DNA from: Pleomorphomonas carboxyditropha
GTDB lineage: Bacteria > Pseudomonadota > Alphaproteobacteria > Rhizobiales > Pleomorphomonadaceae
Length of the DNA: 64,000 nucleotides
Assembly (NCBI RefSeq): GCF_002770725.1
Contig: NZ_NQVN01000001.1
Coordinates: forward strand, 186,001-250,000
Reading direction: 5' to 3'
The notes below the pieces were generated by a model. That model did no database searches and was not told the origin of the DNA. It was given only the letters and a program-made list of their open reading frames with translations. The position numbers were made by a program, and so were the translations under genes. This document shows, one piece after another, positions 2,706 through 10,429 of this stretch. Position 1 is the first letter of the stretch; each line of letters begins with the position of its first letter.

Positions 2706-3140
2706 TCAGTCGCCGTTGATCGCCTTTGCTTTCAGCGCGTCGAATTCAGATTGGGTGATCGTTCCGCTGTCAAGCAACTCCTTGAATTCCTTAATCTTCT
2801 CGGCGATGCTACCACCTGATTCAGAGTTAGCCGAGGAATAGTGAATTACCGGCTGCGCCGATTGCTGAGATCCAGAATTCATCATAGCCCAGACTAGAGC
2901 GCCAACCCAACCGATGAAAGTCCAACCCGCAAGAATGTTCAGAATATAGATAGCGCCTTTATTCGGATGATCTCGTTTTGACGCAACAATTGATGGTACA
3001 AAATATAGCAAAAGCGACAATATTACTAATACTAGGAAGAACCCACCAAAGCCGTCGCCGCTTGATTCTCTATACATCGCTTGCGCGAATGCGTCAGTTG
3101 CCAGAGCACTTGAAGCAATAAAAGTGATGATTACACGCAT
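2706..3140 (-). CDS. Superinfection-immunity-like membrane protein with SHOCT tail
   Basis: The 144-residue product starts with a signal-like segment (RVIITFIASSALATDAFAQA). Two hydrophobic segments follow, separated by SIVASKRDHPNKGAIYILN and ending in LAGWTFIGWVGALVWA. That arrangement, with a K-x-H-P-N-K turn followed by a GW-x-IGW-x-GA-x-VWA helix, is the signature of the T4 Imm-like superinfection immunity family. The C-terminus (IKEFKELLDSGTITQSEFDALKAKAI) is a SHOCT domain, a short helical module common in oligomeric membrane proteins. Family members block DNA entry of related phages. The gene is antisense to its neighbours and has its own G-rich ribosome-binding region, the usual layout of a prophage gene expressed in lysogeny. 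Exclusion activity is inferred. Confidence 0.78.
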   Translation of the reverse strand: MRVIITFIASSALATDAFAQAMYRESSGDGFGGFFLVLVILSLLLYFVPSIVASKRDHPNKGAIYILNILAGWTFIGWVGALVWAMMNSGSQQSAQPVIHYSSANSESGGSIAEKIKEFKELLDSGTITQSEFDALKAKAINGD

Positions 3141-3320
3141 AGTTTCCGCCCCTCACGGTTGCCCCAGTAAGCATGCGTTATTGATAACGATGTTCAGATT
3201 ACCGCGAAATAGGCGATTTTCCATACCGTAGGGTTGCATTTCCATCGCGTGTCCGTACCGAACAAATTCGTTACGAATATCCGGCTACAACAAACGAAAA
3301 TCAGGCGTGGAGTCAGTGCG

Positions 3321-4568
3321 TTGCGGTGTGTCGACCTATTTTCCGGTGCTGGCGGACTATCGCTCGGTCTTCGAACCGCTGGACTCGATGTTGTCGGTGC
3401 ATTCGACGTCTGGCCCGAGGCTGTCGAGACCTATAACCGCAACATCGGCGACCATGCGCACATCCTCGATCTCAGCGACGTCATGTCAGCGGCGCTCGCT
3501 GTCGGCGAGCTGCGTCCAGACGTCATTTGCGGCGGCCCTCCTTGCCAAGATTTTTCGAAAGCCGGGCTAAAATCCGAAGGCGAGCGCGCATCAATGGTGA
3601 TTGCGTTCGCAATGATCGTCGCGTTGAGCAGGACGCCATGGTTCATGCTCGAAAACGTGCGGGGCATTTTGGAATCGGACGCCTGGCAGACGGCCTGCGA
3701 CATCTTGAAGGCGCATGGCTACGGCATCTCAACATCGATCGTCGACGCATCACACTACGGCTGCGGGCAGTCGCGGACCAGAGCGATCATCATCGGCCGC
3801 CGAGGCGAACGCGATGGTTTTCTAGAGCGCGCGATTGAGCGTGCGGCATCGGTCGAACCGACTACAATGCGTGACATACTGGGCGACAGCGTCGGGGAAT
3901 ATGTCTTCGTAAGGCCGTTCAAAGACGGCCAGGGCGTCCGTTCGACCCGCGAGCCGTGTCCGGCCGTAATCCGGACGACACCAGAAAGAGCATATCGTCG
4001 TCACATCGAGACGAGAAATCCGCTTGATCCCGTGCCGGCTTCGCTTGTGCCGCCGTTGACCGTCGAGCAGGTTGCTCGACTACAGGGATTCCCACGCGAC
4101 TGGGACTGGTCTGCGGCAGGGAACAAGCGCTCGACCATGCAAATGATTGCGAATGCCGTACCGAGTCCTCTCGCGGCGGCGATAGGACGCATCATACTCG
4201 AACGACATAACGGCAAAGCTGAGAAAACAGACGATGCATTCGGCCGCTGGCTTCAGAAGTCGCGCGGTTACGGCGGCCAGACGTTGAAAAACAGGATGTC
4301 GGCTTACACCCGGGCTAGACGCATGCTCTGCGGCCGGGAGTTCGCAACGCTGAATGACGAGATTGCGGCGCTCCAAGCGGCTGCCGAGTTTGACGCGCTA
4401 CCGAAAACGACGCGGTCGGATCTCAGGAAAGCCCTTAAATTGCATGCGGAGTACCGCATGTATCAAGCGGCCGAGGCCGAGAAGCGGAAGGAGTCGGCAC
4501 GAAAGGCAGCAGAAAGCCGCCGAAAGAAGGTCCCGGAAGCTGAGATAGGTCTGGAAGTGGCGGCTTAA
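3321..4568 (+). CDS. Solitary DNA cytosine-5 methyltransferase
   Basis: Motif I (DLFSGAGG) opens the protein. Motif IV follows with the catalytic Cys (GGPPCQDFS), then motif VI (ENV), motif VIII (QSRTRAIIIG), a target-recognition region, and motifs IX/X (RLQGFPRDW...NAVPSPLAAAIG). The start chosen is TTG at 3321, eight bases after GGAG, giving 415 residues and placing motif I at the N-terminus as in most of the family. The frame is open upstream to a TTG at 3234, which has no usable ribosome site. After motif X, about 110 extra residues follow, containing FGRWLQKSRGYGGQTLKNRM, SDLRKALKLHAEY and a lysine/arginine-rich tail. No restriction endonuclease gene is adjacent, so this is probably an orphan protective or regulatory methylase. 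Confidence 0.9.
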   Translation: MRCVDLFSGAGGLSLGLRTAGLDVVGAFDVWPEAVETYNRNIGDHAHILDLSDVMSAALAVGELRPDVICGGPPCQDFSKAGLKSEGERASMVIAFAMIVALSRTPWFMLENVRGILESDAWQTACDILKAHGYGISTSIVDASHYGCGQSRTRAIIIGRRGERDGFLERAIERAASVEPTTMRDILGDSVGEYVFVRPFKDGQGVRSTREPCPAVIRTTPERAYRRHIETRNPLDPVPASLVPPLTVEQVARLQGFPRDWDWSAAGNKRSTMQMIANAVPSPLAAAIGRIILERHNGKAEKTDDAFGRWLQKSRGYGGQTLKNRMSAYTRARRMLCGREFATLNDEIAALQAAAEFDALPKTTRSDLRKALKLHAEYRMYQAAEAEKRKESARKAAESRRKKVPEAEIGLEVAA

Positions 4569-4669
4569 GCGGTGGATCCTACCGTTCGAACTCGTGCGCG
4601 CCTACTTGGATTAACAACAAAAGGCTGCAATTATAGTGGCCTGGAACAGGCTGGTTGATAGGCAAAAGC

Positions 4670-5317
4670 ATGCAACACTTAGTCAGGTATCTGCTAGCAA
4701 GCCTAATTTTATCGTTTCCCGCTAAGGCTGCCGAGATAATTTCGACCAATTTAAAGGTTAGTGGCGGCATATCTACAGTTCTTATTAGCGATCGGGTTAA
4801 TGTACCCGAGTTGCTGGACCTCACAAAAGCCATCTTGAGTGCGCAAAACTCACAAAACATTAAGACTATTTGCTTCTACCTGAAAGATCAGGCGTCTCCG
4901 GCGTGGTCTTGCTTGGGGCGAGATGACAAGGCGTCTGGCGAATTCAAAGTGTTAACGATGCACTTCTCGAAGGATGAATGGAATTCGTTCGGCATTGATG
5001 GCGGCCTTTATCCTCCAGACTCCCAAGTTATTGGCGTATGGAATATGAAAAATGTTGAGACGCCTCTTGGCGACCACATTATATCTATTTATAAATGGCG
5101 CGGAGAAACTTACTATTACCGGAAATTCGAGCATGACGGCAGTGGGGATCCTCGGCGGGTGACGAGCGAGCATCTTCCTATTGGGGAGGCGTTCACAGAT
5201 TATGATTCTGAAAACGACTATATCGTTTTAACGAAGAGTGGCACCCTCGTTTATTGGGATAACCAAGGCCCAATCGAAACCTATAAATCGCGCAAAATGG
5301 AAGTGCCTGCACATTGA
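4670..5317 (+). CDS. Exported protein of unknown function
   Basis: The start chosen is the ATG at 4670, a few bases after an AGG; the reading frame reaches a TTG at 4655. The first 21 residues (MQHLVRYLLASLILSFPAKA) form a classical signal peptide with an A-x-A type cleavage region. The mature part, about 195 residues, is rich in aromatic residues and strand-forming segments (YKWRGETYYYRKFEH, NDYIVLTKSGTLVYWDN) and has two cysteines that could pair. I recognise no family. It is AT-rich compared with the chromosome and lies between a methyltransferase and a small antisense operon, so it is probably a prophage accessory gene acting in the periplasm. Confidence 0.6.
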   Translation: MQHLVRYLLASLILSFPAKAAEIISTNLKVSGGISTVLISDRVNVPELLDLTKAILSAQNSQNIKTICFYLKDQASPAWSCLGRDDKASGEFKVLTMHFSKDEWNSFGIDGGLYPPDSQVIGVWNMKNVETPLGDHIISIYKWRGETYYYRKFEHDGSGDPRRVTSEHLPIGEAFTDYDSENDYIVLTKSGTLVYWDNQGPIETYKSRKMEVPAH

Positions 5318-5391
5318 GCATTCCACATCGAGAATAGGCAATAGATAACTCGGTAGATTGGTTTTTACTCGTGCCGACTGACGACGCGCAC

Positions 5392-5607
5392 CTAGCCGAC
5401 CACATCGCTCAATGCCCGACCGAAAAGCTCGTCGTCAGAAATCTCACCGCGCGCCCACGCGTCAAGCAGCGCCTCGGTGTCCGGCGTGATCGGCAGTCCT
5501 TCTATTCGCGTCGACGCGAGCGCGTAGCGCACAGAATCCTGCCGCCGAATCTGCTCTTCAGTCGTCAAAACAGATGTCGTCCGCGTCTCTGTCATAAGCG
5601 CAATCAT
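5392..5607 (-). CDS. VbhA-type Fic antitoxin, orphan
   Basis: The 71-residue product contains RYALASTRIEGLPITPDTEA followed by LLDAWARGEISDDELFGRAL. The segment STRIEG matches the Fic-inhibitory motif [S/T]xxxE[G/N], and the following acidic helix pair is typical of the VbhA antitoxin family. In that family the inhibitory helix places its Glu in the ATP site of a Fic AMP-transferase. No Fic toxin gene is next to it here. The gene overlaps the end of the small acidic gene upstream (start inside 5558-5607), so translation is probably coupled; an alternative start is at 5595. The nearest Fic gene is at 9335, outside the prophage. Confidence 0.75.
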   Translation of the reverse strand: MIALMTETRTTSVLTTEEQIRRQDSVRYALASTRIEGLPITPDTEALLDAWARGEISDDELFGRALSDVVG

Positions 5608-5710
5608 ACATTGGATCGCCGTAAAGTGCTGCTTCTTCTGCTCTTATCTCCGCCGCTTCGCGTTCGTCATAGACGTCGTCGATCTCGTAACTCTCTATAA
5701 ATGTCGTCAT
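5558..5710 (-). CDS. Small acidic protein of unknown function
   Basis: This is a 50-residue frame beginning MTTFIESYEIDDVYDEREAA. It is very rich in Asp and Glu and ends in DADDICFDD. The ATG is preceded by a near-perfect ribosome-binding site (GGGAGGACGATC then ATG), which is the main reason to accept so short a gene. Its 3' end overlaps the VbhA-like gene in another frame, so the two form an operon. An acidic, DNA-mimic-like protein is a possibility, but no function can be assigned from sequence. Confidence 0.6.
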   Translation of the reverse strand: MTTFIESYEIDDVYDEREAAEIRAEEAALYGDPMYDCAYDRDADDICFDD

Positions 5711-5834
5711 GATCGTCCTCCCACGGCGATGCTGCGCTGAAATCTTGCAAGCAAGAAACGCCGTCAATCCGCCGGCGGAAATTGTGCCATGCACGCTGCA
5801 GCAGCACTCTCTCTTTAAATCACGGGAGGGGACT

Positions 5835-6386
5835 ATGTTTGCGTTTTTCAGAGCGATTTTGAACGGCATTCGGTCCGCGTTCAGCACCGCGTGGACGATC
5901 TATAATTTCTGTTTCGGCTGGCTTCTCGACGCCTTCTACCCGGGCGCTCGTGAAGCTATGAGCCAGCCGACATCGCCGGATCGCACCGACGAGTTCGCCG
6001 CGAAAGAGATGTTTGAATCCGTCAAGGCCGAGGCCGCGAAGCCGATTCTCGGCACCTTCGCAGACGCCGCGACGCAGACGATCGATTTCTGCAGATCCGA
6101 TGATCCATGGGCGTGCGATTTGAGCCGCGTTCCAGAACGCGCGCGTCGCGTGCTGACGATGCTTTCAGACGACGAGAGAGCGGTGATCGGCCGCTCTCTA
6201 TATTGCGACATCGACGCGTGGATTCACGAGCGCTACACGGCCGTGCCTATCGCGCCCGTAGCGGATTATCTAGCGATCGACGAAGCCGCTGAGGCGTTCG
6301 AGCGTAGAGATAGTGCGCTGTCGGAAATCGCATACGACGGACTGTTCGGAATCGGTGACGAAGCTGCGCAGCTGCGATTGAACTAA
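5835..6386 (+). CDS. Phage protein of unknown function
   Basis: The start chosen is the ATG at 5835, which follows a strong GGGAGGGG ribosome-binding site; the frame is open upstream but lacks such a signal. The 183-residue product has an aromatic, moderately hydrophobic N-terminus (MFAFFRAILNGIRSAFSTAW and on to about residue 36) that could contact a membrane. A charged, mostly helical remainder follows, with three cysteines and many Asp/Glu. I recognise no family. It is transcribed away from the VbhA operon, so the interval 5711-5834 probably holds divergent promoters. Confidence 0.65.
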   Translation: MFAFFRAILNGIRSAFSTAWTIYNFCFGWLLDAFYPGAREAMSQPTSPDRTDEFAAKEMFESVKAEAAKPILGTFADAATQTIDFCRSDDPWACDLSRVPERARRVLTMLSDDERAVIGRSLYCDIDAWIHERYTAVPIAPVADYLAIDEAAEAFERRDSALSEIAYDGLFGIGDEAAQLRLN

Positions 6387-6542
6387 CTATCATTCAGTTT
6401 ATCCACAGTCTATTTTCGACATCATGGTGCATGCGCAACTCTTTGTACTACAACGAATGTGACAAATCTCTAATATACGCAGCGTATCGAGACAAAATAC
6501 AATGATTAACCAAGCCTTGCCTTAGCACTCTTAGGTCATAAT

Positions 6543-6758
6543 ATGCATCCGTCGCAACGACGACGGAGAAAAACTACGACAAACCTCAGCATCAATATCT
6601 ACATTCACGCGCCAAATGGAAAAGTATCAGTATCGGGCATCGGGCACCAAATAGATATCGCGAGAGATCGTAGGTTACTGAGCAAGGTACTAATCGACAT
6701 CGCCGGATCAGCAGTAAGCAAAGCCGTGGTGAGCTTGATCCTGATTTTGCTCAACTGA
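6543..6758 (+). CDS. Small protein with C-terminal membrane segment (tentative)
   Basis: This is a 71-residue frame with a very basic start (MHPSQRRRRKTTT), a strand-rich middle (INIYIHAPNGKVSVSGIG) and a hydrophobic C-terminus (AVSKAVVSLILILLN) that could be a tail anchor. An AGG lies about nine bases before the ATG. The stretch before it (6387-6542) is AT-rich and could hold a promoter. No family is recognised. The call rests on base composition, a plausible ribosome site and absence of an overlapping gene. Confidence 0.4.
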   Translation: MHPSQRRRRKTTTNLSINIYIHAPNGKVSVSGIGHQIDIARDRRLLSKVLIDIAGSAVSKAVVSLILILLN

Positions 6759-6766
6759 GCGCAATC

Positions 6767-6804
6767 AAAAACACCAAGGGAGCCGTTCATAGCGGCTCCC
6801 TTGG
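6767..6804 (-). terminator. Rho-independent terminator for the leftward operon
   Basis: A perfect 12-bp stem (6774-6785 with 6793-6804, core AAGGGAGCCG) with a 7-base loop is followed, on the minus strand, by a T-rich tract at 6767-6771. It lies downstream of the two minus-strand genes at 6947-7497 and fits as their terminator. Confidence 0.8.
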
Positions 6805-6946
6805 ACATCTCGACACTCTCTTCGGTTTCCCTGTCCACCATCACGGTTGGACCGCAACTAAGCGGCGGATGGCTCCTTGCAGTCGATCTGGAAGCCATTC
6901 CAGATTATGAGCATGAGGTCTCGCTCGGAGCAAACCGCCGGCGGCG

Positions 6947-7201
6947 TCAGTCGTCGTCAATCTTGTCGATCAGCCATGCCGGCAGGTCGTCAGTGCGGTA
7001 TGCAACTCGGCCGCCCGACAGCAGTCGGACTCGATCATCTAGCTCGTCGAGCCGCTTCTTGAGCACGCGTACTCGCTCGCTGACGCTATCGACGTCGGGC
7101 AACTGATGCCGGTCGATGACTCCGTCGAGACACGCATTCGCGTCGTCGACGATCGACGAGAGTTCATCGAGCATCTCTACGATGTCAGGACGAGACATCA
7201 C
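6947..7201 (-). CDS. Small acidic helical phage protein
   Basis: The 84-residue product is strongly helical and acidic (MMSRPDIVEMLDELSSIVDD, then SERVRVLKKRLDELDDRVRL), with heptad-like Leu/Val spacing around residues 40-60 suggesting a short coiled coil. It ends LPAWLIDKIDDD. Its start overlaps the stop of the upstream gene by four bases (ATGA type), so the two are co-translated. No family is recognised. The minus-strand terminator at 6767-6804 closes this operon. Confidence 0.6.
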   Translation of the reverse strand: MMSRPDIVEMLDELSSIVDDANACLDGVIDRHQLPDVDSVSERVRVLKKRLDELDDRVRLLSGGRVAYRTDDLPAWLIDKIDDD

Positions 7202-7497
7202 GCCGCCCTGAGCCGCCTGACTTCGGCCGCAAGCAGCTCGGCATTCCGCCGAAGATTCTCGTTTTCCGCTGCGAGACGGCGTCTCTCAAGCATCTCGCCG
7301 CGGCCGAACTCGACCGCGTCGACGACCATCCTCGCCAGGTTCTCACGCGACTCTTCGCACGCGGCTTCATAAGCGGCACGTCGCGCGGCAGCGACACGTT
7401 CGATGCGGCCCTGCAACGCGTTCTGAAATGCTGAATAGACCGCGAGCGAAAAGAACGCTGCGGGTGTCGTCATGTCCATGGGGGTTTCGAGACGCAT
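7198..7497 (-). CDS. Coiled-coil phage protein of unknown function
   Basis: The 99-residue product has a short N-terminal region (TTPAAFFSLAVYSAFQNALQ) followed by a long Ala/Arg/Glu-rich helix ending in a clear leucine heptad stretch (RRRLAAENENLRRNAELLAA). GGAG lies 11 bases before the first ATG; Met7 is an alternative start. It is the first gene of a two-gene operon transcribed leftward from the control region at 7498-7763. Function unknown; a small DNA-binding or scaffolding protein is possible. Confidence 0.6.
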   Translation of the reverse strand: MRLETPMDMTTPAAFFSLAVYSAFQNALQGRIERVAAARRAAYEAACEESRENLARMVVDAVEFGRGEMLERRRLAAENENLRRNAELLAAEVRRLRAA

Positions 7498-7590
7498 GAT
7501 GATTCAGTCTCCGTTGCTGAACTACATGTGAGCTCGACGCGACGTAACGTCAAATAATGATCGATCGTTGAGTAAACAGAGTGCGATCGT

Positions 7591-7673
7591 TGTCCGATTT
7601 CTCAATATAAGACATCCTGGATGTCCGAATTTTCAACGTAAGGGGTCTGTTTTGTCCGAATTTTCAACGTAAG
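7591..7673 (+). repeat. Three 21-bp direct repeats with exact 31-bp period
   Basis: Copies start at 7591, 7622 and 7653. The second and third are identical over 21 bases (TGTCCGAATTTTCAACG then TAAG); the first differs at four positions but keeps TGTCCGA. The 31-bp period equals about three helical turns, so a protein bound at each copy would lie on one face of the DNA. The array lies between divergently transcribed genes and about 90 bp before the start at 7764. It is best read as an operator or iteron-like binding region; three copies with 10-bp spacers are not a CRISPR array. Confidence 0.85.
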
Positions 7674-7763
7674 AAATTTGATGCGCAAATCTTTCATGAG
7701 AACCGCCGGCGATCTACGCTCTCATTAAGCACAGGAAAGTAGTGCTGTAGTGGGGAGGTGATC

Positions 7764-8147
7764 ATGGCAGTTTGGGTGGCACCGGGAAACGGGTTCGGAG
7801 AACCGAACATCACGTTGAGACGAGCGAGAATGTGTCGTGATGCTATCGCACGCGGCGAGATTACGCTCAAAGAGATGGCGAACGAGCTGGATGTTGAGTA
7901 TACCCACTTCAAGCGTGAGTTGAATCGGCTTCTGACTGAAGCGGGGGAGCCGCCTGTCGGAGTTGCACCGCGGATCTATAGTCACACGGCCTGGGACTAC
8001 GGTATTCGCGCTGATGCTGTGAAAAAGAGACATTGTTACATCGGCGAGAAGATCGACACGACCGCTCTCTGCAACAAGATCGACGAGTTCCTCCGGGGCG
8101 GCGGTTCGGTCACGCGCATTGAGCGTCAGACGTCGATTGCAGCCTGA
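7764..8147 (+). CDS. Putative phage DNA-binding regulator
   Basis: The ATG at 7764 follows a strong GGGGAGG site; a GTG two codons earlier is less likely. The 127-residue product has a segment (ARMCRDAIARGEITLKEMAN then ELDVEYTHFKRELNRLL) that reads as a helix-turn-helix: the pattern 'ITLKEMANELDVEYTHFKREL' resembles the two DNA-contacting helices of small regulators. The rest includes three cysteines and a basic C-terminus. It lies between two clusters of short direct repeats that share the core TGTCCGA, so it is a candidate for the protein that binds them. No named family is recognised. Confidence 0.55.
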   Translation: MAVWVAPGNGFGEPNITLRRARMCRDAIARGEITLKEMANELDVEYTHFKRELNRLLTEAGEPPVGVAPRIYSHTAWDYGIRADAVKKRHCYIGEKIDTTALCNKIDEFLRGGGSVTRIERQTSIAA

Positions 8148-8264
8148 TTTTTTCGCCGGCGCATTGACCGAAGCATCTGTCGGCGGGAACATGAATATGC
8201 GGCAGGTTTTTCCTCATTCTCTCCTAGCCGCCCGCACGGCGCACGTCATGGCCGCCGATGCCTC

Positions 8265-8298
8265 GCCCCCAGCGCCCTCCCCAAGTTGCGCTGGGGGC
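8265..8298 (+). terminator. GC-rich stem-loop, probable terminator
   Basis: A perfect 11-bp stem (8265-8275 with 8288-8298, GCCCCCAGCGC/GCGCTGGGGGC) with a 12-base loop is followed by CTCCGTTTA, a weak T-tract. It lies about 120 bases after the regulator stop at 8147 and before the second repeat cluster. Confidence 0.65.
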
Positions 8299-8307
8299 CT
8301 CCGTTTA

Positions 8308-9076: not shown

Positions 9077-9126
9077 GCTGACTCTTAATCAGCGGGTCTA
9101 CGGTTCGATCCCGTACGCGCCCACCA
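9077..9126 (+). other. Attachment site: 3' fragment of tRNA-Lys(CTT)
   Basis: The sequence contains a complete anticodon arm (GCTGA, loop CTCTTAA, TCAGC; anticodon CTT). A short variable region follows, then a T arm (TACGG, TTCGATC, CCGTA), the 3' acceptor strand CGCGCCC and ACCA. The 5' acceptor strand (expected GGGCGCG) and the D arm are missing upstream, so it cannot be a working tRNA. A 3' remnant at the edge of a phage region marks the attachment site left when an element integrates into the 3' part of a tRNA gene and rebuilds the intact copy at its other end. From 9127 to about 9302 I see no gene; the translated minus strand of the tRNA remnant gives a misleading short frame. Confidence 0.88.
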
Positions 9127-9302
9127 CTTTTCTGTCATGATTTCAAATAGATAACTGAGTCGCTTGAGAGCGAGCGGTGTTCTCGTGCGCGATTTGATTT
9201 CCGCGTACGTCGCGCACGGCTTCGGTTGCCAGCAATATGTGCAAGATTGTCGAGGGCTTCGGCGAGGCATAGATGCGCTTGCTAAAGCTCAAATATAAGC
9301 CC

Positions 9303-9339
9303 ATCATGAGTTATAGAAGGGAATTCTATAACTCATGAT
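9303..9339 (+). promoter_or_regulatory. Palindrome spanning the fic start codon, probable operator
   Basis: Two perfect 16-bp arms (9303-9318 and 9324-9339, core GAGTTATAGAA/TTCTATAACTC) flank a 5-base spacer GGGAA. The fic ATG (9335) lies inside the right arm and the only Shine-Dalgarno-like bases are in the spacer. It could bind the Fic protein's own C-terminal winged helix, or fold in RNA and hide the start. Confidence 0.8.
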
Positions 9340-10429
9340 CTGGAATTGGCAGCGCGCCGCATGGCCGGATTTCACCTACGAGCCGGCGGCGATGGAGGCG
9401 CTGGAGCGGCAGTTTCTGCTGAATTCCGGTGAATTCATCGGGGCTTACCGGCATATCAGCCCTGACGAGCGGGATATGTTGCGTATCGAGCTTATCAGCG
9501 ACGAAGCGCTGACCACCTCCGAGATCGAAGGCGAATTCCTCGACCGCGACAGCCTGCAAGCGTCCCTCCGCCGGCAATTCGGCCTCGGCGGCGGCGACCG
9601 GACTGTTCCGCTTGCCGAACGGGGCCTCGCCGAGATGATGGTCGACCTTTACCGCGGCTTTGCCGAGCCCCTGACCCACGACCGGCTCCATGCCTGGCAC
9701 CGGATGATCATGGCCGATGCCAGGAGGATCGAGGTGGTCGGCGGCTACCGCACGCACACCGATGCCATGCAGGTCGTTTCCGGCGCGATCGGCAATCTCG
9801 ACATCCACTTCGAAGCGCCTCCCTCCGCCCAGGTGCCGGATCAGATGGAACGGTTCCTTGCGTGGTTCAACGGCGGCGCTTCGACCGTGCTGCCCGCCCT
9901 CACACGCGCCGGAATTGCCCACATCTACTTTGAAAGCATCCATCCCTTCGAGGATGGAAACGGTCGTATCGGCCGCGCCATCTGTGAAAAGGCCCTTGCG
10001 CAGAGCCTGGCGCAGCCCAGCTTGATTGCGCTCGCCTATACCATCTCCCGGCACCGCAAGCGGTACTACGCCATGCTGGAGCGCAGCAACAAGGATATCC
10101 TGATCACCGACTGGCTGGTGTATTTCGGCGAGACGGTCCTGGAAGCCCAGCGGAACACCATGCGGAGGGTCAGCTTCCATATCGCCAAGGCGCATTTTTT
10201 CGGCCGGCTCGGCGGCCAGTTGAACGATCGCCAGCTCAAGGCCATGACCCGGATGTTCCGGGAAGGCGTCGACGGGTTCAAGGGCGGGTTGAGCGCGGAA
10301 AACTATATCAGCATCACCAAGACGTCGCGCGCCACGGCGACCCGCGACCTGCAGGACCTGGTCGAAAAGGGCGCCCTCTCCCGGACCGGCGAGCGGCGCC
10401 ATACGCGCTACCGGTTGCGGCTGGAATAA
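9335..10429 (+). CDS. Fic domain protein with DUF4172 N-terminus and C-terminal winged helix
   Basis: The 364-residue product begins MIWNWQRAAWPDFTYEP, as in DUF4172-Fic proteins. At about residues 55-62 it carries TTSEIEGE, the inhibitory motif TxxxEG, N-terminal to the Fic core, as in class II Fic proteins. The catalytic motif HPFEDGNGRIGR is complete, with the active-site His and the phosphate-binding GNGR. The last 50 residues (ITKTSRATATRDLQDLVEKG then ALSRTGERRHTRYRL) form a winged helix-turn-helix. Fic enzymes transfer AMP to hydroxyl side chains of target proteins. Self-inhibition plus a DNA-binding tail and the palindrome at its start suggest autoregulation. It is the first chromosomal gene after the prophage. 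Confidence 0.9.
   Translation: MIWNWQRAAWPDFTYEPAAMEALERQFLLNSGEFIGAYRHISPDERDMLRIELISDEALTTSEIEGEFLDRDSLQASLRRQFGLGGGDRTVPLAERGLAEMMVDLYRGFAEPLTHDRLHAWHRMIMADARRIEVVGGYRTHTDAMQVVSGAIGNLDIHFEAPPSAQVPDQMERFLAWFNGGASTVLPALTRAGIAHIYFESIHPFEDGNGRIGRAICEKALAQSLAQPSLIALAYTISRHRKRYYAMLERSNKDILITDWLVYFGETVLEAQRNTMRRVSFHIAKAHFFGRLGGQLNDRQLKAMTRMFREGVDGFKGGLSAENYISITKTSRATATRDLQDLVEKGALSRTGERRHTRYRLRLE

Follow-up and report, generated by a model that had tools for sequence, protein, structure and literature searches.

A vbhA-type antitoxin gene without a Fic toxin in a Pleomorphomonas prophage, a possible inhibitor of Fic enzymes in trans

A prophage of Pleomorphomonas carboxyditropha carries a gene for a VbhA-family antitoxin, and neither a Fic gene nor a credible remnant of one. 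The gene, vbhA, lies at 5392..5607 on the minus strand of the window (the whole stretch of 64,000 nucleotides analysed here), where it overlaps an ORF for a small acidic protein. Our preferred reading, to which we give a probability of about 0.45, is that vbhA encodes a working orphan inhibitor of FicT enzymes acting in trans, such action on a Fic enzyme being plausible by analogy with the known systems considered below. An antidote gene present without its toxin suggests, short of proof, that the virus turns it against Fic toxins made by the host or by rival elements. The fuller scenario is quite unlikely as a whole, namely that a temperate phage has retained, from a FicTA module, the antitoxin alone, coupled to a new acidic protein, as a counter to Fic-based abortive infection, against the FicT-type AMPylating toxins that hosts or rivals use as defence.

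The vbhA product is 71 residues long from the ATG at 5607, 67 from the ATG at 5595 and 58 from the TTG at 5568. Its residues 22-64 match PF18495 in a Pfam profile search at 51.3 bits, against a curated cut-off of 25.9 (E=1.1e-13), and this is the sole PF18495 match in a profile search of the whole genome. The (S/T)xxxE(G/N) inhibitory motif of VbhA/FicA-type antitoxins of class I Fic enzymes is present as S32-TRI-E36-G37 (codons at 5497..5514, minus strand), placed from the sequence and from phmmer alignments with the BiaA chains 5eu0_B and 5nh2_B and the VbhA chain 3zc7_B. The phmmer alignment puts E36 at the position of E24, the motif glutamate of VbhA, the numbering and the role of the motif in VbhA being those given in the accessible part of PMC8401265. 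Searched against the PDB as a single sequence the protein retrieves BiaA and VbhA chains (E 1.5e-4 to 0.086), and a profile of 12 relatives retrieves the same five chains at E 7e-20 to 5e-9. An AlphaFold2 model built on an alignment of six sequences (mean pLDDT 81.9) predicts three helices, at residues 16-36, 42-52 and 58-70, for which the top five Foldseek matches in the PDB are again VbhA or BiaA chains (probability 1.00, TMq 0.63-0.70, E only 0.045-0.21); no PDB match reaches E 0.001, as may be expected of such a small protein. Searched against BFVD the model gave no match at E<=0.001, the top one being A0A516L8F2 (TMq 0.70, probability 1.00). Six letters are few, and a chance occurrence of the motif was therefore considered; it was rejected, since neither the score over the whole domain nor the predicted fold can be put down to chance. 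The window thus encodes a VbhA-family antitoxin at 5392-5607, as a sequence-only reading of this DNA, which noted the STRIEG motif, had proposed.

VbhA of Bartonella schoenbuchensis is encoded together with its toxin VbhT. This antitoxin of VbhT (PDB 3shg, 3zc7) is of the same family as the window protein, with the same LASxR(L/I)EGL stretch round the inhibitory glutamate and the same predicted three-helix fold; its PDB entries are VbhT/VbhA complexes, whereas the window prophage is without Fic. The BiaA antitoxins of Bartonella (5eu0, 5nh2), which are the best PDB sequence matches of the window protein and have its fold, are called promiscuous in the accessible part of PMC8401265. BiaA differs in being encoded by genomes that carry its partners, and not by a phage.

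The prophage location, likewise claimed in the sequence-only reading, is confirmed by attachment sites and structural genes. The element is a tailed-phage prophage of about 48.6 kb (contig C11, 146500-195132) bounded by a perfect 56-bp repeat, of which the attL-side copy (C11:146500-146555, outside the window) begins with 50 bases that are the 3' part of tRNA-Lys(CTT), while attR, an unstranded feature, lies at 9077..9132 of the window (C11:195077-195132). An integrase gene is found at the attL end, followed by genes for terminase, portal, head protease, major head protein and tape measure, and then endolysin. Beyond the lysis genes the right arm holds a gene combining Imm_superinfect, a superinfection-immunity domain (PF14373, 68.9 bits), with SHOCT (2706..3140, minus), a C5-cytosine DNA methyltransferase gene (PF00145; 3234..4568, plus), the unit of acidic ORF and vbhA, and a ROS/MucR-type regulator gene (PF05443; 8442..8876, plus) that the att sites place inside the prophage, just before attR. 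Regulators of the ROS/MucR type are usually host genes. The methyltransferase is apparently solitary, with no restriction enzyme among the scanned ORFs neighbouring it. A divergent ORF of 183 aa without a family match (5835..6386, plus) faces away from the acidic ORF and vbhA. In make-up this right arm resembles an accessory region holding conflict genes, and it is this context, with the superinfection-immunity and methyltransferase genes in the same arm, that suggests a possible anti-defence role for vbhA.

The acidic ORF (5558..5710, minus) precedes vbhA and encodes 50 residues, of which 18 are D or E and three K or R (computed pI 4.05). A GGGAGG ribosome-binding site (5717..5722, minus) stands six bases before its ATG, and its overlap with vbhA amounts to 50, 38 or 11 nt for a vbhA start at ATG 5607, ATG 5595 or TTG 5568, respectively; acidity, ribosome site and overlap are thus all as first described. 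Judged from the alignment, the TTG start would bring the window protein nearly into register with the start of Bartonella VbhA. At none of the three vbhA starts is a clear ribosome site visible by eye, which fits translational coupling; vbhA is likely translated in this way, with the acidic ORF probably serving as leader in an operon of the two genes. A promoter and terminator scan gave nothing above chance. Codon use is coding-like in both genes: scored against 18 long prophage ORFs, an uncurated set chosen by length, so that some may be spurious, the acidic ORF reaches 0.395 and vbhA 0.292, compared with means of 0.263 in frame (160 windows) and -0.043 off frame (800 windows, sd 0.179), and 0.25% and 2.75% of the off-frame windows attain the respective scores. 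The acidic protein has no match in Pfam, PHROGs or NCBIfam (E up to 1) or in PADLOC (E up to 0.01), and a known anti-restriction or DNA-mimic protein, which we considered, finds no family match in its support. Small ATG ORFs just upstream of vbhA were sought in six plasmid relatives. A Deinococcus plasmid has one of 49 aa (pI 4.1), with no likeness by eye to the window ORF, and one of 79 aa (pI 5.0); in four further relatives their pI is 6.0-11.5, and the sixth lacks such an ORF.

The sequence-only reading had also stated that the prophage encodes no Fic toxin, and each search made here agrees. Seven PF02661 (Fic) matches occur in the genome, none of them in the prophage or near vbhA, and no fic gene stands directly downstream of vbhA as it would in a FicTA (VbhTA-like) module. 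An IMG/VR contig of 47,494 bases, identical at every one of the 7,753 bases compared and therefore a copy of this same prophage and no second case, is also without a PF02661 match; a toxin hidden in the prophage was rejected on these grounds. With 16 Fic proteins as tblastn queries (nine VbhA partners and the seven of the host), nothing inside the prophage scored better than E=0.028. This very weak match (query the host Fic on contig C21) sits on the vbhA strand at 4996-4766 (minus), some 400 nt downstream of that gene. Its 77 alignment columns show 25% identity and contain two stops, and it runs antisense to an ORF at 4655-5317. Two Fic profiles, applied to 1,592 stop-to-stop six-frame peptides of a 60-kb region, found the Fic gene at 9335, reached no better than E=0.35 within the prophage and did not see the weak match at all; we considered it as a fic remnant and read it as chance.

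These results bear on a serious rival, although one we think somewhat unlikely, namely that vbhA and fic once formed an addiction module from which the toxin was deleted, leaving an antitoxin that persists without present function. The weak match downstream could be taken as a trace of such a toxin, but the Fic profiles are blank there and the match has the stops and the antisense ORF just described. Nor is vbhA visibly decayed, though Fic is missing: its frame is open, its motif intact and its codon use, like that of the acidic ORF, coding-like, and the upstream partner gene retains a strong ribosome site of its own. What favours a lost toxin is the state of the relatives, in which vbhA most often stands beside a Fic gene, intact or broken, making toxin loss the simplest history.

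PF18495 is rare. At E<=0.001 it occurs in 1 of the 14 genomes sampled from the genus, 6 of the 297 from the order, 5 of the 385 from the class and 13 of the 398 from the phylum; above the cut-off the counts are 1, 4, 3 and 8, respectively. These samples overlap, each includes the genome itself, and in the larger searches not all first-look candidates were scored. Twelve further loci score above the cut-off. At six of them (L011, L023, L024, L027, L028 and L029) an intact ORF with the Fic motif lies within about 1.5 kb. Three more (L012, L031 and L032) have, as judged by eye, a truncated or frame-broken Fic-like start, which shows that toxin loss does happen, and two (L010 and L033) have no Fic within about 1.5 kb on each side; the twelfth, L030, has a kinase gene as its neighbour and is taken up below. 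A scan of genome contigs added one weak match (L016), with no Fic-motif ORF in its 12 kb. At L024 (1222-2505, plus) VbhA and Fic domains are fused in a single ORF of 427 aa, the VbhA part scoring 27.2 or 23.3 bits, depending on the search, against the cut-off of 25.9.

Plasmids give a similar picture. VbhA matches were found in 18 plasmid records, and among the 13 examined (all except H4, H5, H7, H8 and H9) fic stands beside vbhA in seven, while the other six, pCOOP-101 and five Bacillus plasmids of replicon type Inc13, have no PF02661 in the whole record. Mobile elements, among them plasmids of two quite different kinds, have thus repeatedly come to carry vbhA without its toxin, but toxin loss is recurrent as well. 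On the conjugative plasmid pCOOP-101 (L018), the VbhA-like gene (2959-3165, plus) overlaps the start of repA by 4 bp.

A change of function is a further alternative, in which the VbhA domain has been repurposed as a small regulator, or as the partner of another toxin or enzyme, and is no longer a Fic inhibitor. There is a precedent of a kind at L030 (1456-2168, plus), where the VbhA-family gene overlaps by 4 bp a gene for a zeta-toxin-like kinase (PF06414, E=2e-11) in place of fic; as L029, from the same genus group, has fic, this is an apparent change of toxin partner. The window vbhA, too, overlaps an ORF of no known family. The inhibitory residues S32, E36 and G37 and the predicted fold are nevertheless kept, and we regard repurposing as improbable.

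The sequence of the window protein, a profile of three and the acidic ORF found no relative in 50,697 phage records, giving only five hits at E 3-6, and other VbhA seeds gave none at E<=1e-3 among phages and viral contigs. Pattern scans of IMG/VR with the window protein, a close profile or the acidic ORF returned only the same prophage; such scans reach close relatives only, and so do not demonstrate that phage relatives are absent. Indeed vbhA also has a match in PHROG 18905 (E=9.3e-9), a phage protein family of unknown function, so that some phage family of the VbhA kind exists. For the surrounding DNA no phage relative was found at 3000-8300, and the stretch 4600-8300, compared with 14 genus genomes, has outside its own genome just four short matches, one of 126 query bases at 78% identity (G004) and three of 33-34 bases in others.

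Which Fic enzyme might be the target can be asked of the seven in the host. The sequence-only reading had named the neighbouring one, a class II type protein with DUF4172 and Fic domains (9335..10429, plus), and for this choice speak its proximity and its match to the SoFic defence profile (145.8 bits). Inhibition of this enzyme by the vbhA product is nevertheless very improbable. The gene lies 203 bp beyond attR, outside the prophage, and is not part of the vbhA unit; its product has its own N-terminal TSEIEG motif, which should occupy the VbhA site in cis, whereas VbhA-type antitoxins serve class I enzymes; and all nine VbhA-partner Fics compared are closer to another host Fic. Its best matches in other genus genomes are 37-38% identical. 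As a SoFic-like gene it is a possible host defence gene adjoining the phage integration site.

Four of the seven host Fics, this one included, have an (S/T)xxxE(G/N) match of their own. The three without are a FicT of 198 aa on contig C15 (HAFREGNGR), a protein of 279 aa on contig C8 and a Doc-like protein. The C15 FicT is the best host match for 9/9 of the VbhA-partner Fics (E 4e-8 to 6e-48), although these partners are not uniform, those of Lichenicola and Massilia missing the canonical FIC motif pattern used and that of L028 having an inhibitory-motif match of its own. On these sequence comparisons the class I FicT of C15 is the best candidate target among the seven. The orphan inhibitor in a prophage thus stands from the earlier interpretation, and its named target gives way to C15 FicT as the likely one. 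C15 FicT also matches the PADLOC candidate-defence profile PDC-S04 at 239 bits. Directly upstream of both the C15 and the C8 gene, with a 4 bp overlap, lies a small ORF without a Pfam match, carrying SANIEN at C8 and, at C15, SAVEG, which is one residue under the standard spacing; these ORFs are probably the enzymes' own antitoxins. That C15 FicT probably has its antitoxin at hand, and that it is patchy, being present in only 4 of 14 genus genomes and in one of these in two pieces, count against the orphan-inhibitor reading.

If our preferred reading of an inhibitor in trans is right, the target would be a class I FicT of the host or of a competing element, whose Fic fold the three-helix domain would bind. 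In the accessible part of the source, the toxin's own first helix is said to complete the three of the antitoxin, and the same would be expected of the window protein, if made, with a matching class I FicT. In the toxin's HxFx(D/E)GNGR motif the partner of E36, itself held by S32, would be the second arginine; this pairing would leave ATP unreactive and prevent AMPylation of the toxin's targets, which for known FicTs are DNA gyrase and topoisomerase IV (title of Harms 2015; accessible part of PMC7479194). The phage might thereby infect, persist or replicate in cells holding FicTA modules. Fic enzymes are described, in the part of PMC12249575 available, both as toxins of toxin-antitoxin pairs and, as Sofic, in anti-phage defence.

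The reading has some precedents. A Fic inhibitor encoded by an ICE of Campylobacter fetus neutralises in trans a toxin encoded elsewhere (accessible part of PMC5651007); this protein, Fti3, stands outside the VbhA family, is reported there to have no apparent relation to known Fic antitoxins, and is accompanied by a partner Fic. Orphan antitoxins of plasmid leading regions have been proposed as anti-defence (accessible part of PMC11541004), and phage orphan antitoxin-like enzymes against DarTG1, as well as T4 Dmd, appear in titles cited in PMC12548467; as far as these sources go, in all three the mobile element carries the antidote alone against a toxin-based system, and the toxin families differ from Fic. 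Closest are Acetobacter prophages, in which TAfinder listed vbhA without a named toxin (NA-vbhA; accessible part of PMC9379143). Like the window's, these loci are toxin-less vbhA genes in prophages, appearing in that part of the paper as a table category only, with no structure, partner or target analysis. With the NA-vbhA loci and the orphan antitoxins proposed as anti-defence (on plasmids and, by title, in phages against DarTG1), toxin-less vbhA is a known kind, and the window case adds one more example, whose partner ORF belongs to no known family. An experimentally tested phage-borne VbhA is not among the literature matches listed for VbhA and Fic antitoxins, phage and anti-defence; a Hafnia phage paper found under 'VbhA' matched by phage name only.

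A phage-borne Fic inhibitor, if real, would show how phages answer Fic-based defences, and would be a natural inhibitor for class I Fic enzymes. With a candidate host target in the same genome, it could also be asked here in a simple way whether an antitoxin gene that a mobile element carries without its toxin is a weapon or debris.

The left arm of the prophage (L037) has a feature of its own, a SRAP peptidase gene (PF02586; 15044-15679, minus) adjoining a gene for a Rep3-type replication initiator (PF01051; 15692-17212, minus). Initiators of this type are more typical of plasmids.
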